Shown here: positions 32,482 through 38,645 of the stretch, piece after piece
Position numbering within the stretch: position 1 is the stretch's first letter
Layout: the number at the start of each line of letters is the position of its first letter
NCBI GenBank assembly: GCA_017475045.1
Contig: JAFVGH010000097.1
Span: 1-64,000, forward strand
DNA length: 64,000 nt
Reading direction: 5' to 3'
Origin: Fibrobacter sp.
GTDB taxonomy: Bacteria; Fibrobacterota; Fibrobacteria; Fibrobacterales; Fibrobacteraceae
Notes under the pieces: model-generated
Seen by the model: only the letters and a program-made list of their open reading frames with translations
What the model was told of the DNA's origin: nothing
Database searches by the model: none
Program-made: the position numbers and the translations under genes

Positions 32482-32799
32482 AAAGCGGCTCTAATAAAAT
32501 ATGACTGCTGAAAATTGTGTTACCAAAATACTTCTTTAATATATATAAAAAGGTGGTTAAATTCAGAACCAGTCAATATTTTAACTTGGAATAAAAATGC
32601 TAGGCAAGGGGGGGGGATGTATTGAATGTGCGGTTTGGTGATTGAAAATCATTAAAATGAATCGGGTAAAGCCCGGCTCGCGTAGTGGCGCGGGAAACGC
32701 CTAAGTCACGTAAAAAAGATGACTTTTGGGAAATTATATGCGTTTGTTCTTGCTTTTTGTAATGGATTGTATTATATTTGTAATTGAACGGAGGTCTTT
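32482..32799 (+). other. Intergenic region with G9 tract and hairpin repeat
   Basis: This 318-base gap holds no supported gene. It has a run of nine G (32608-32616), a 40-bp hairpin repeat (32666-32705) shared with 33650-33689, and a possible promoter TTGCTT-N17-TTATAT (32750-32778) for the toxin-antitoxin pair. Confidence 0.55.
32666..32705 (+). repeat. 40-bp hairpin repeat, copy 1
   Basis: The unit begins GTAAAGCCCGG, has a GC-rich stem and ends CGCGGGAAACGCC. It matches 33650-33689 with most differences inside the stem, where G-U pairs keep it closed. Confidence 0.7.
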
Positions 32800-33093
32800 A
32801 TGGCTACGACTGTACTGCAGGTCCGAATGGACGAAAAATTGAAAGATGAGGCTGCGGAGCTCTTTGAAAACCTGGGAATCGATATTCCTACGGCTATCCG
32901 CATCTTTTTCAAGCGGGCTGTTGCTGAAAAGGGAATCCCCTTTGAACTGCGTGAGCCATCTGCCGTTTACGATGCAAATCCTGGATGGAAAGCCTTCATG
33001 GATTTGCGCAGACAGGCGCAGCGTGGTGCGGCTGCAGGCATGAGCGATGCTGAGGTTGAAGCTGAAATTGCTGCATATCGTTCTGGCAAGTAA
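32800..33093 (+). CDS. RelB/DinJ-family antitoxin
   Basis: This 97-residue protein has an N-terminal ribbon-helix-helix DNA-binding segment (TVLQVRMDEKLKDEAAELFE and LGIDIPTAIRIFFKRAV) typical of the RelB/DinJ antitoxins. The rest (FELREPSAVYDANPGWKAF) is the toxin-wrapping tail. ACGGAGG precedes the ATG. A PIN-domain toxin gene follows after 17 nt, so the two form a toxin-antitoxin operon, probably autoregulated by the antitoxin. Pairing of a DinJ-type antitoxin with a PIN toxin rather than a RelE/YafQ toxin is a mixed combination. Confidence 0.88.
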   Translation: MATTVLQVRMDEKLKDEAAELFENLGIDIPTAIRIFFKRAVAEKGIPFELREPSAVYDANPGWKAFMDLRRQAQRGAAAGMSDAEVEAEIAAYRSGK

Positions 33094-33110
33094 TTTGGTT
33101 GAGGTGATGC

Positions 33111-33566
33111 GTGGTTTATGCAGTCATTGATACCAATGTCATTGTGTCGGCATTGATTACCAAGTCTCCGGATTCTCCGGTGTTGCGGGTGGTTCAAAGA
33201 ATATTTTCAGGACGTGTCTGTACATTGGTAAACGAAGAAATTCTCGCTGAATATAGGGAAGTTCTTGCTCGACCGAAATTTGGTTTGGAAAAAGAGACTA
33301 TTGAAGCTGTTATTGCTGAGTTGCTAAATCACAGCTTGAATGTTGATGCTCCGCCGAGTGGAGTTGTGCTGCCTGATCCTAAGGATGTTGTTTTTTACAA
33401 TGTTGTTCTTGCAAAACGGGATGATGGTGCGTATCTGGTAACGGGCAACCTCAAACACTTTCCGGCATGTAGTTTTGTTGTTACCCCGCGCGAGTTTCTT
33501 GATATTGTTGACGCTCCGCTGCGTACGACGTTCGTGAACGATTACTCGCGTCGTTATAGACCGTAA
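33111..33566 (+). CDS. PIN-domain toxin (COG1569 type)
   Basis: This 151-residue ribonuclease-like protein starts at GTG with GAGGTGA just upstream. The PIN acidic residues are visible: Asp7 in AVIDTNVIVSAL, Glu in VNEEILAEY, and Asp residues in LPDPKDVVF and KRDDGAYLVTGN. The order matches the putative toxin-antitoxin PIN family, which cleaves RNA. It is the second gene of the operon with the DinJ-like antitoxin. The absence of a terminator between them supports cotranscription. Confidence 0.88.
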   Translation: MVYAVIDTNVIVSALITKSPDSPVLRVVQRIFSGRVCTLVNEEILAEYREVLARPKFGLEKETIEAVIAELLNHSLNVDAPPSGVVLPDPKDVVFYNVVLAKRDDGAYLVTGNLKHFPACSFVVTPREFLDIVDAPLRTTFVNDYSRRYRP

Positions 33567-33649
33567 TCGCGCATCGTTTTCATTGGGATTTTTGCGTTAG
33601 GGATTGTTACCCGCGAGGGCGGAGACTACAGGCTCTGGGAGCGTAGCGA

Positions 33650-33689
33650 GTAAAGCCCGGCCCGCGCGGTAGCGCGGGAAACGCCTTGT
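33650..33689 (+). repeat. 40-bp hairpin repeat, copy 2
   Basis: It carries a perfect CCCGCGC-GGTA-GCGCGGG stem. It runs directly into the 135-bp repeat at 33686. Confidence 0.75.
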
Positions 33690-33820
33690 AAAATTTTCTT
33701 CCCCCTCTGGCGCAAGCGCCAAATGCTAGGCTCGGTCATATCCATGCAAGCATGGCTGCAACACTCGCCTTACGCATTGGTGCCAGGTTTCTGAATATTA
33801 GGTACATTACCGTCCGACGC
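33686..33820 (+). repeat. 135-bp leader element, copy 1
   Basis: This segment is identical to 35399-35533 except for two substitutions in 135 bases. It contains small stems GGCGC-AA-GCGCC and CCATGC-AA-GCATGG. Its last bases (GACGC) form the 5' end of a terminator stem. Both copies stand directly before an AlbA_2/ATPase gene. Confidence 0.95.
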
Positions 33821-33851
33821 ATCTCGCTGTACAAAGGCGAGGTGCGTTTTT
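33817..33851 (+). terminator. Terminator-like hairpin at the end of leader copy 1
   Basis: ACGCATCTCGC (33817-33827) pairs with GCGAGGTGCGT (33837-33847), 11 bp including one G-U, 9-nt loop, then a T run. It lies about 70 nt before the GGAGG of the AlbA_2 gene. Confidence 0.8.
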
Positions 33852-33898
33852 GCGTTAATTAAGTTTTCAATTTTGCAAGAACGCCTCTAACATTAACC

Positions 33899-33915
33899 AG
33901 CCACAATTTGTGGCT
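33899..33915 (+). promoter_or_regulatory. 17-bp palindrome next to the ribosome-binding site
   Basis: AGCCACAATTTGTGGCT is a perfect 7-bp inverted repeat around ATT. It ends 4 nt before the GGAGG site (33920-33924). It could be an operator for the encoded DNA-binding protein or an RNA hairpin near the start. The second paralogue has no such site. Confidence 0.5.
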
Positions 33916-33929
33916 AAATGGAGGCTTTT

Positions 33930-35357
33930 ATGACAAAAGACGAAATTTTAGCAGGCGAATCAGAGCTGCTAGAGTTCAAGCGAGACATTCCCGAACAGAG
34001 CTTCAAGTATATCAAGACCGTTGTAGCCTTTGCTAACGGCAAGGGCGGCAGAATCGTCTTTGGCGTGGACGACAAAACACATAAAATTGCGGGCATAAAA
34101 AAGAGCGAGGTCTTTCAGAAAGCCGACACTATCGCCGATACGATTTTCAACAGCTGCGAACCCAAAATCAGACCGAGCATCAATCTTCAGGAAATTGACA
34201 ATCGCTACATTATCGTGGTGACGGTGCCTTCTGGAATGCAGCAACCCTATTACATAAAGAGCATGGGGATTACCGAAGGCACTTTTGTTCGCGTGGCAGC
34301 AACAACCCGCGAAGCCGAACGATACATGCTTAAGGAATTGGTTCTTGAAGGTGAAAACGAATCGTACGATCAGCAATCAGCTGGCGAAACCGCTTCAAAG
34401 GAAGAAGTCGAAAATCTTTGCGACAAGATTTATGATTTTACAGCAGGGACTTTAAGCAAAAAGGAACGTACAGCTTTGCGAAGACCGACTGTTAACCAGT
34501 TACTTTCATGGAAACTGCTGAAAAAGGAAGGCCGCTCTTTAGTAGCTTCAAATGGATTTAGACTTTTGCAGGGTTCAATCAATGATTTCCCTGACGCGAA
34601 GATTCAATGTGCCGTATTCAAAGGAAATGTCCGGGGCGATTTCCTGAAGCGTCAAAATATGGAAGGCCCTCTTTTCGAGCAAATTGAATCGGCCTATCAA
34701 TTCGTGATGCAAAATTTGCCCGTTCTGTCCAAGGTGAAGGGGCTCTTCAGGCACGATAATTCCCTTTTGCCTGAATCAGCCGTTCGCGAAGCCATTGCAA
34801 ATGCGGTATGTCACCGCAGTTACCTAATCCCTCGCAAGGTGCAGGTAGCGTTGTATGATGACCGTTTGGAAGTGACGTCCCCAGGGACGCTTTGCAGGGA
34901 TGTCACCTTGGAAAAGATGCGCGAAGGCATGTCTAGCGTGCGCAACAAAGGAATTGCGGAAACATTTATCTATATGCGTATTGTTGAAACTTGGGGCAGT
35001 GGCATTCCTAACATCTATAAAGCGATGAAAGAAAGTGGCTTGCCAGAACCTGTAATGCAGGATTTTCATGGGGATTTCAGGATAACCTTATATTGGAAAT
35101 GGAAACTACCCAAAACTACCCTAAACTACCCTAAAAACTACCCAATAACTACCCAAAAGATATCCGAAATGGAGCTGAAAATTCTTGAAGTGATCAAGGG
35201 AAATAACAACTTCTCTCGTAATGAAATTGCCAAAACTCTTGGAAGCATCACTCCTGATGGCGTAAAATATCACCTTTCTAATTTGCAAAAGAAGGGGTTG
35301 TTAAAACGAGTTGGCGGGAGAAAAGAAGGTCATTGGGAAGTCCTAATTGATATTTGA
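33930..35357 (+). CDS. AlbA_2 (Schlafen-like) / HATPase regulator, paralogue 1
   Basis: This protein of about 475 residues has an N-terminal AlbA_2 domain (ESELLEFKRDIPE, FANGKGGRIVFGVDD), a middle ATPase-like C-terminal RecG/HATPase_c_4 domain (PESAVREAIANAVCHRSYL, VTSPGTLCRDVTL, GSGIPNIYKAM) and a final winged helix (GVKYHLSNLQKKGLLKRVGG). Such proteins are usually annotated as transcriptional regulators or RecG-like. The linker before the winged helix is encoded by tandem AACTACCC repeats. An ATG at 33918 is in frame, but GGAGG at 33920-33924 identifies 33930 as the start. A paralogue follows at 35609. Confidence 0.87.
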   Translation: MTKDEILAGESELLEFKRDIPEQSFKYIKTVVAFANGKGGRIVFGVDDKTHKIAGIKKSEVFQKADTIADTIFNSCEPKIRPSINLQEIDNRYIIVVTVPSGMQQPYYIKSMGITEGTFVRVAATTREAERYMLKELVLEGENESYDQQSAGETASKEEVENLCDKIYDFTAGTLSKKERTALRRPTVNQLLSWKLLKKEGRSLVASNGFRLLQGSINDFPDAKIQCAVFKGNVRGDFLKRQNMEGPLFEQIESAYQFVMQNLPVLSKVKGLFRHDNSLLPESAVREAIANAVCHRSYLIPRKVQVALYDDRLEVTSPGTLCRDVTLEKMREGMSSVRNKGIAETFIYMRIVETWGSGIPNIYKAMKESGLPEPVMQDFHGDFRITLYWKWKLPKTTLNYPKNYPITTQKISEMELKILEVIKGNNNFSRNEIAKTLGSITPDGVKYHLSNLQKKGLLKRVGGRKEGHWEVLIDI

Positions 35358-35398
35358 AAAATCTTGACTACCATTCGGCATTGAGCAAATTGTCGACT

Positions 35399-35533
35399 TT
35401 GTAAAATTTTCTTCCCCCTCTGGCGCAAGCGCAAAATGCTAGGCTCGGTCATATCCATGCAAGCATGGCTGCGACACTCGCCTTACGCATTGGTGCCAGG
35501 TTTCTGAATATTAGGTACATTACCGTCCGACGC
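35399..35533 (+). repeat. 135-bp leader element, copy 2
   Basis: It differs from 33686-33820 at two positions only, a C to A that weakens the first small stem and an A to G in GGCTGCGACACTC. Flanking sequences are unrelated, so the conserved unit is well bounded. Confidence 0.95.
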
Positions 35534-35568
35534 GTTTCTCTGTCAAATGGAGAAATGCGTCTTTTTTT
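35529..35568 (+). terminator. Terminator-like hairpin at the end of leader copy 2
   Basis: GACGCGTTTCTC (35529-35540) pairs with GAGAAATGCGTC (35550-35561), 12 bp with one G-U, 9-nt loop, then seven T. Relative to copy 1, two pairs have changed on both sides (C-G to U-A and G-C to U-A), so the stem is maintained. It sits about 30 nt before the next ribosome-binding site. Confidence 0.85.
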
Positions 35569-35608
35569 ATTCCGGGAGTGACGCGCCCACAAATAGGGAG
35601 GTCACGAA

Positions 35609-37358: not shown

Positions 37359-38645
37359 ATGACAACACAGAATAAGCTCCACTTTGAAACTCTTCAGCTC
37401 CATGTTGGCCAGGAAACCGCAGACCCCGCAACCGATTCTCGCGCCGTTCCTATTTACCAGACCACCTCCTACGTGTTCCATAGCGCACAGCATGCTTCCG
37501 ACCGTTTCCACCTGAAGGATGCCGGCAACATTTACGGCCGCCTCACCAACACCACACAGGATGTCTTTGAAAAGCGTATCGCCGCTCTCGAAGGCGGTAT
37601 CGCAGGCCTCGCCGTTGCATCTGGCGCAGCAGCCCTTACCTACGCCATCACGGCTCTCGCCCGCAAGGGTGATCATGTGGTAGCTCAGCGTACGATTTAC
37701 GGCGGTACCTACAACCTCCTGGAACATACGCTCCGCCCGTTCGGCGTAGACACCACATTCGTGAATACCCGCGACCTCAAGGAAGTCGAAGCCGCCATCA
37801 AGGAAAATACGAAGCTCGTGCTCATCGAGACGCTCGGCAACCCGCATTCCGACATCCCGGACATCGAGGCCATCTCCGAGATTGCCCACAAGCACAAGAT
37901 TCCGGTCGTGATCGACAATACCTTCGGTACGCCGTATCTGATCCGCCCCATTGAACACGGTGCCGACATCGTCGTTCACTCCGCAACGAAGTTCATCGGC
38001 GGTCATGGCACTACCCTCGGTGGCGTGATTGTTGACGGAGGCAAGTTCGACTGGGCCGCCAGCGGCAAGTTCCCGCAATTCACCGAAACCAACCCGAGCT
38101 ACGGCGTGCCCTTCACTGCCGCTGCTGGCGCCGCTGCCTATATCGTCTATATCCGCGCAATCCTCCTGCGTGACGAAGGTGCTGCAATTTCCCCGTTCAA
38201 CGCTTTCCTCCTGCTCCAGGGCACCGAAACTCTTTCGCTCCGCCTTGACCGTCATGTGGAAAACACCAAGAAGGTTCTGGAATTCCTCTCTAAGCACCCG
38301 AAGGTTGCAAAGGTCAACCACCCGAGCTTCAAGGATCATCCGGACCACAAGCTTTACGAACGCTACTTCCCCAACGGCGGTGGTTCCATCTTCACCTTCG
38401 ATGTGAAGGGTGGCCAGGCCGAAGCCTTCAAGTTCATCGACAGTCTCAAAATCTTCAGCCTGCTCGCTAATGTTGCCGACGTGAAGAGCCTGGTGGTGCA
38501 CCCCTACACAACGACCCACTCGGAACTTACTCCGGAAGAACTGGCCGCAGCGGGCATCTCTCCGGCGACGATCCGTCTCTCCATCGGTACCGAACACTAC
38601 GAAGACATCATCAACGACCTGGATCAGGCGCTGAACGCAATCTAA
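37359..38645 (+). CDS. metY: O-acetylhomoserine sulfhydrylase
   Basis: This 428-residue PLP enzyme makes homocysteine from O-acetylhomoserine and sulphide. The PLP lysine is in HSATKFIGGHGTTLGG, whose GTT insertion is typical of MetY and distinguishes it from MetB/MccB. Other signatures are LHVGQETADPATDSRAVPIY near the start and the C-terminal LVVHPYTTTHSELTPEE. A longer frame opens at 37299, but AAAGGAA at 37344-37350 supports 37359. It shares its promoter-operator with mccBA, so homocysteine and cysteine synthesis are probably coregulated. Confidence 0.95.
   Translation: MTTQNKLHFETLQLHVGQETADPATDSRAVPIYQTTSYVFHSAQHASDRFHLKDAGNIYGRLTNTTQDVFEKRIAALEGGIAGLAVASGAAALTYAITALARKGDHVVAQRTIYGGTYNLLEHTLRPFGVDTTFVNTRDLKEVEAAIKENTKLVLIETLGNPHSDIPDIEAISEIAHKHKIPVVIDNTFGTPYLIRPIEHGADIVVHSATKFIGGHGTTLGGVIVDGGKFDWAASGKFPQFTETNPSYGVPFTAAAGAAAYIVYIRAILLRDEGAAISPFNAFLLLQGTETLSLRLDRHVENTKKVLEFLSKHPKVAKVNHPSFKDHPDHKLYERYFPNGGGSIFTFDVKGGQAEAFKFIDSLKIFSLLANVADVKSLVVHPYTTTHSELTPEELAAAGISPATIRLSIGTEHYEDIINDLDQALNAI

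Follow-up and report, generated by a model that had tools for sequence, protein, structure and literature searches.

The locus and its two leader copies

Within the 64,000-nt stretch of DNA from the gut bacterium Fibrobacter analysed here (the window), two genes encoding proteins with AlbA_2, HATPase_c_4 and winged HTH domains follow each other in the same orientation, each behind a predicted promoter and a structured leader (Table 1). Directly upstream of the first leader, at 32800-33566, a gene for a RelB-type antitoxin is paired with one for a PIN-domain protein (Pfam RelB and PIN_3). The original prediction singled out near-identical 135-nt blocks ahead of the two AlbA_2/ATPase genes, and the measurement bears this out: 33686-33820 and 35399-35533 agree at 133 of 135 positions, with mismatches at 33720 (C/A) and 33760 (A/G), and the ungapped repeat around both blocks extends over 166 nt at 93% identity. 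The terminator hairpin with a 9-nt loop said to close each block was picked up in both by a terminator scan, as an 11-bp stem at 33817-33827/33837-33847 with loop TGTACAAAG and another at 35530-35540/35550-35560 with loop TGTCAAATG, each followed by a U-tract. Stem pairing is indeed kept between the copies, through two changes on both sides (C-G/U-A and G-C/U-A, copy 1 vs copy 2) and two G-U exchanges (A-U/G-U and U-G/U-A).

Table 1. Features of the two leader-gene units in the window (all on the + strand)
Feature	Position	Basis or remark
UP-like box TGTAAAATTTT, copy 1	33687..33697	Sharp left border of element; information content
72-nt interspersed palindromic repeat, copy 1	33709..33780	Copies elsewhere in genome without leader
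Predicted promoter, copy 1: -35 GTGCCA, 17-nt spacer, -10 TACATT	33780..33808	Family conservation, fixed spacing
H1, terminator-like hairpin at predicted RNA 5′ end	33817..33847	Covariation, terminator scan
U-tract, copy 1	33847..33851	All 70 leaders have 5 or more U among the 8 positions following H1
H2: GCGUUUUUGC (33844-33853) with GCAAGAACGC (33875-33884)	33844..33884	Covariation
H3: GCCUC (33883-33887) with GAGGC of the Shine-Dalgarno (SD) (33921-33925)	33883..33925	Covariation
H3b, enclosed by H3	33899-33904/33910-33915	Covariation
AlbA_2 + HATPase_c_4 + winged HTH protein, 475 aa from ATG 33930	33930..35357	Pfam
UP-like box, copy 2	35400..35410	Repeat comparison
72-nt interspersed palindromic repeat, copy 2	35422..35493	Same repeat as copy 1
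Predicted promoter, copy 2: GTGCCA-17-TACATT	35493..35521	
H1, copy 2 (35530-35560), and U-tract (35562-35568)	35530..35568	Covariance model, terminator scan
SD region, copy 2, without H2: SD GGGAGG masked by GUGAC/GUCAC and CCC/GGG	35578..35605	Fold
Second AlbA_2 + HATPase_c_4 + winged HTH protein, 471 aa	35609..37024	Pfam

Scored with a covariance model, copy 1 is a canonical leader (127 bits), and copy 2 (48 bits, E 2e-10) is a short variant in which H2 is lacking and the SD stem is rebuilt. Within the genus, a plain sequence search found the leader element in 55 of 80 genomes, and the covariance search of the phylum, which had been proposed as a check, found it in 73 of 168; this recurrence excludes a chance resemblance of the two window copies. 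Their near-identity is a separate matter. A further full copy in the same genome (L003) is only 88% identical, and we therefore consider that recombination or exchange of leader-gene units, together with a shared repeat insertion, explains the near-identity better than purifying selection on the RNA. A functional structured RNA with a terminator-like hairpin is strongly supported by covariation across 70 leaders, the kept U-tract and the conserved promoter at a constant distance.

Predicted promoter and left border

Leaders of other genomes follow a common plan: TGTAAAATTTT, about 12 nt, CCCCTTGCCA, 17 nt, TACATTA and, directly after it, the hairpin. Among 103 distinct insert-free copies, the information content per position jumps at the left border, from ~0.4 bits outside to 1.6-2.0 bits inside; the -35 and -10 boxes hardly vary and the spacer measures 17 nt. 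From the -10 box to the first hairpin base the distance is 8 nt in 97 of 119 copies. In the window, the 72-nt repeat splits the promoter between the UP box and the -35 box and has altered the latter, which reads GTGCCA in both copies and TTGCCA in the family consensus; a consensus promoter scanner did not call the promoter at 33780..33808. An insert between UP box and -35 is absent in 103 sampled leaders, while 19 carry one or are cut.

The transcript is accordingly predicted to begin at the hairpin, and the larger part of the 135 shared nt would be promoter DNA. Judging from the sequence, the part of the block upstream of ~33813 and outside the repeat is probably promoter and, as such, not transcribed. 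The block described as a 135-nt leader is thus for the most part no leader RNA but a conserved predicted promoter split by the 72-nt interspersed repeat. Elsewhere in the window's genome that repeat stands alone, with no other part of the leader, at L004 (in the valS region), L006 and L007. Copies lying away from such genes, named beforehand as the mark of a generic repeat, therefore exist for the 72-nt half only, and the remaining promoter-leader part is not affected.

Fold of the leader RNA

The leader is ~110-120 nt long and contains three consecutive hairpins. We aligned 70 leaders from the -10 box to the start codon without reference to structure. In H1, 99.4-99.5% of cells are paired, with compensatory change in 6-7 pairs (6 of 10 in one count); in H2 the figure is about 98% (97.9-98.3%), with 5 compensatory pairs of 8-10. 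H3 is paired in 93.9% of cells with 1 of 6 pairs compensated, and H3b in 89.5% with 3 of 5. Over all helices, 96.1% of cells are paired vs 45-56% in slid controls, 16 pairs show compensatory change, and the covariation score was matched by none of 500 shuffles. RNAalifold independently predicted H1, H2 and half of H3. Among cells that are not Watson-Crick, G-U outnumbers A-C by 378 to 31 in the 70 leaders, an indication that it is the transcribed sense that folds. H2 pairs with the U-tract, and there the U side is kept while its partner alternates between A and G, which suggests selection on U itself.

At sequence level, a predicted intrinsic terminator lies between promoter and gene, as is characteristic of a transcription attenuator. 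When the nascent RNA is 38-44 nt long, it is predicted to consist of one hairpin (about -20 to -22 kcal/mol) with U behind it, as in an intrinsic terminator. In many copies the U-tract has just 5 U or is interrupted, and transcription may therefore terminate incompletely. The SD, for its part, lies inside a conserved, covarying helix, as in SD-sequestering leaders; the original prediction had overlooked this second putative lock. Its predicted unpaired probability is 0.0 in window copy 1 and 0.22 in copy 2; in the 70 leaders the median is 0.017, and 65 of 70 fall below 0.3.

H1 and H2 share only GCGU, and H2 and H3 share GC. According to fold prediction the three helices are largely compatible with one another, and the leader need not be a two-state switch. 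When the 5′ half of H1 was taken away, predicted SD exposure rose only to 0.445; with the whole of H1 gone it was 0.014. We considered whether GAGG:CCUC pairing between regions 2 and 3 might act as a strong switch and rejected this: a control with the upper region 2 shuffled gave similar SD exposure (0.481 vs 0.445), which assigns the effect to the shared GCG and not to a longer alternative helix. Coupling of H1 to the SD is accordingly a weak prediction of the fold model, in which it would be partial and would run through the shared GCG alone. The idea of a leader peptide that begins at the (A/G)UG in H1 was likewise discarded, as neither reading frame nor stops are conserved.

No Rfam 15 family reaches its gathering threshold anywhere in the window, and literature searches returned no description of the leader. 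We conclude that the structured leader is real and apparently undescribed, and that its predicted mechanism, a terminator combined with an SD mask, belongs to a known kind, here in the form of a portable module for exchangeable genes.

Genes behind the leader and distribution

The original prediction confined the leader to two paralogous regulators, which proved too narrow: across Fibrobacter, the first genes that follow it sort into 12 unrelated clusters, including YhcG/DUF1016 nucleases, AlbA_2, Bro-N/DinD, ORF6N and toxin-antitoxin genes. Pfam matches in 102 proteins behind leaders include DUF1016_N (28), YhcG_C (26), AlbA_2 (21), Bro-N (19) and ORF6N (6); NCBIfam adds DinD (22) and antitoxin families, and the YhcG group matches the PADLOC candidate defence models PDC-S02. 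From these sequence matches, we regard the cargo as candidate anti-phage, nuclease and toxin-antitoxin accessory genes. In six genomes the leader is carried by 8 of 14 AlbA_2 and 7 of 16 YhcG genes, as compared with only a few leaders in an entire genome of ~3 Mb.

Matches of the covariance model are confined to 3 of 41 genera, which belong to the window's own family, and the outlying genera retain promoter, fold and cargo types; named records with the leader are nearly all Fibrobacter. Two apparent cases of spread outside the family were set aside. The Saprospiraceae match (L200) is a chance one, without a covariance model match, and the 5-kb contig of a Gastranaerophilales MAG (L175) holds a true Fibrobacter-type leader (122.7 bits) but is probably mis-binned. 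Phage carriage was also rejected, the sole viral-contig pattern match (L268) not being a leader, and an H1-like match conserved in several genomes (L009) appears to sit in coding sequence. Elsewhere in the window's genome, positions 78938-79066 of contig C28 (G000) give weak model matches on both strands (41 and 32 bits).

Exchange of leader-gene units

Thirty-three leader pairs that are at least 93% identical precede different gene clusters, and one pair, in front of an AlbA_2 gene (L049) and a DUF1016 gene (L050), is identical over 114 nt. The window's own locus lies before a gene at 37359 that reads as metY-like from its sequence. Between the same flanks, this locus holds no unit in L207 and L222, one unit in G049, two in the window, and different cargo (RelE-like and ORF6N) in G056. 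The gain of one unit in the window equals the repeat spacing, 1713 nt. A second locus, after a nitroreductase-like gene, behaves similarly. Homologous recombination within the leader suffices for the left side of such an exchange; at the right border of exchanged units, inspection by eye revealed no conserved element. In one contig (L277, from G045), three leader-gene units are packed into ~2.7 kb, with leaders at 294-414, 1172-1272 and 2824-2934.

Proposed double lock and alternative readings

We hypothesize that one conserved promoter followed by a three-hairpin leader serves as a portable control module of Fibrobacter and close relatives. H1, at the extreme 5′ end, would be an intrinsic terminator at which most transcripts would stop at ~40 nt. 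In transcripts that read through, H2 would take in the U-tract and H3 the SD; H3, whose structure is supported by covariation, would thereby mask translation. The three hairpins would compete for common GCG/GC bases, and since H3 is predicted to become partly looser once the 5′ half of H1 is opened, a factor acting on H1 could relieve both locks. Leader-gene units are swapped between species at fixed loci. This default-off attenuator with a translational mask, a portable 5′ module common to exchangeable accessory genes, is the reading that we consider likely. An extended form, in which a genus-wide pool of exchangeable defence-type genes stands behind one RNA double lock that also serves as recombination anchor, all opened by one common signal such as infection-linked antitermination, is tentative and, taken as a whole, rather doubtful.

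The helices might alternatively be constitutive, with H1 merely protecting the 5′ end, H3 setting a low translation rate and no regulation taking place. Their ability to coexist fits such a leader, as does the finding of neither an aptamer-like domain nor a conserved upstream ORF; mere stability, however, needs neither a conserved U-tract nor shared competing bases, and we hold this to be unlikely. It is also conceivable that the element is mainly a DNA site for recombination or insertion, its hairpins and border serving unit exchange as attC does in integrons, with any effect on expression secondary. The sharp border at TGTAAAATTTT, the gain and loss of units and exchange of cargo at one site, the tandem arrays of up to three units (L277) and the unrelated genes behind shared leaders all agree with this. 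Against it, the G-U to A-C imbalance indicates that the would-be RNA strand is constrained (although single-stranded DNA of the same strand could behave likewise), the SD lies within the covarying fold, the promoter keeps a constant distance, no conserved 3′ element was seen and integron integrase stays below the cut-off in all 80 genomes. We judge a primarily DNA-level role quite unlikely.

Several similar copies per genome, and an H1 plus U-tract at the predicted start that would yield an RNA of ~40 nt, could be taken to mean that H1 of every copy releases a short trans-acting RNA pairing with GCG/ACGC of other leader-bearing mRNAs. Yet both strands would be locked in H1 (-21.7 kcal/mol), with no free conserved seed beyond the 9-nt loop, which makes such an RNA improbable. 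That the element is a generic interspersed repeat without function is scarcely credible: such a repeat does make up 72 of the 135 shared nt, but the remaining part is tied to gene starts, covaries, includes the SD and stands before 8 of 14 AlbA_2 and 7 of 16 YhcG genes.

Relation to known systems

Compared with intrinsic-terminator attenuators of the trp or riboswitch type, the proposed double lock shares the 5′ leader with a terminator hairpin and overlapping alternative pairings; it differs in that the terminator stands at the extreme 5′ end, where neither a sensor domain nor a leader peptide precedes it, and that a single leader serves many unrelated genes. SD-sequestering leaders, including type I toxin-antitoxin mRNAs, likewise hold the SD in a stable hairpin of the full-length mRNA, but the Fibrobacter leader adds an upstream terminator, no antisense RNA gene was seen, and the cargo does not consist of small hydrophobic toxins. 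Integron gene cassettes are similar in combining shared sites and exchangeable genes, a folded conserved element (attC), toxin-antitoxin-like cargo and arrays, whereas the element here precedes each gene on its 5′ side and brings a promoter and SD of its own. An integron as such was rejected, as 0 of 80 genomes score above the TIGR02249 cut-off; attC core boxes (RYYYAAC / GTTRRRY) were not seen by eye in the leaders. The Bacteroides sRNA BTnc201 matches weakly at the copy-2 terminator; membership of this Rfam family was rejected (24.5 bits, the best sub-threshold score in the window, where the gathering threshold is 105).

Genes of the accessory defence and toxin-antitoxin kind are frequently transferred and have to be silenced in a new host. 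The leader would be a ready-made promoter and RNA lock that does not depend on the gene and serves one unrelated family after another. Confirmation would establish a regulon defined by a portable RNA leader, and any gene behind the leader would then point to more candidate defence genes in Fibrobacter. The way in which newly captured genes are brought under control also becomes directly testable.

Repeats in and near the leader

In L013 (~1441-1512), the 72-nt repeat within the leader has its central hairpin changed on both arms (CCATGCAAGCATGG vs AAATAAGCAAGCTTATTT), and so the interspersed repeat itself seems to keep a fold. A second palindromic repeat, of ~80 nt, sits in the U-tract between H1 and H2 in eight loci (L012, L021, L026, L042, L046, L080, L111 and L139), apparently retaining GTGCGTTT at both flanks. 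A REP-like repeat (GCCCGGCCCGCGCGGTAGCGCGGGAAACGCC) is found in the window at 32663-32702 and 33647-33686, and in about a dozen loci the left border of the leader directly adjoins such a repeat, as if this were a preferred insertion point.
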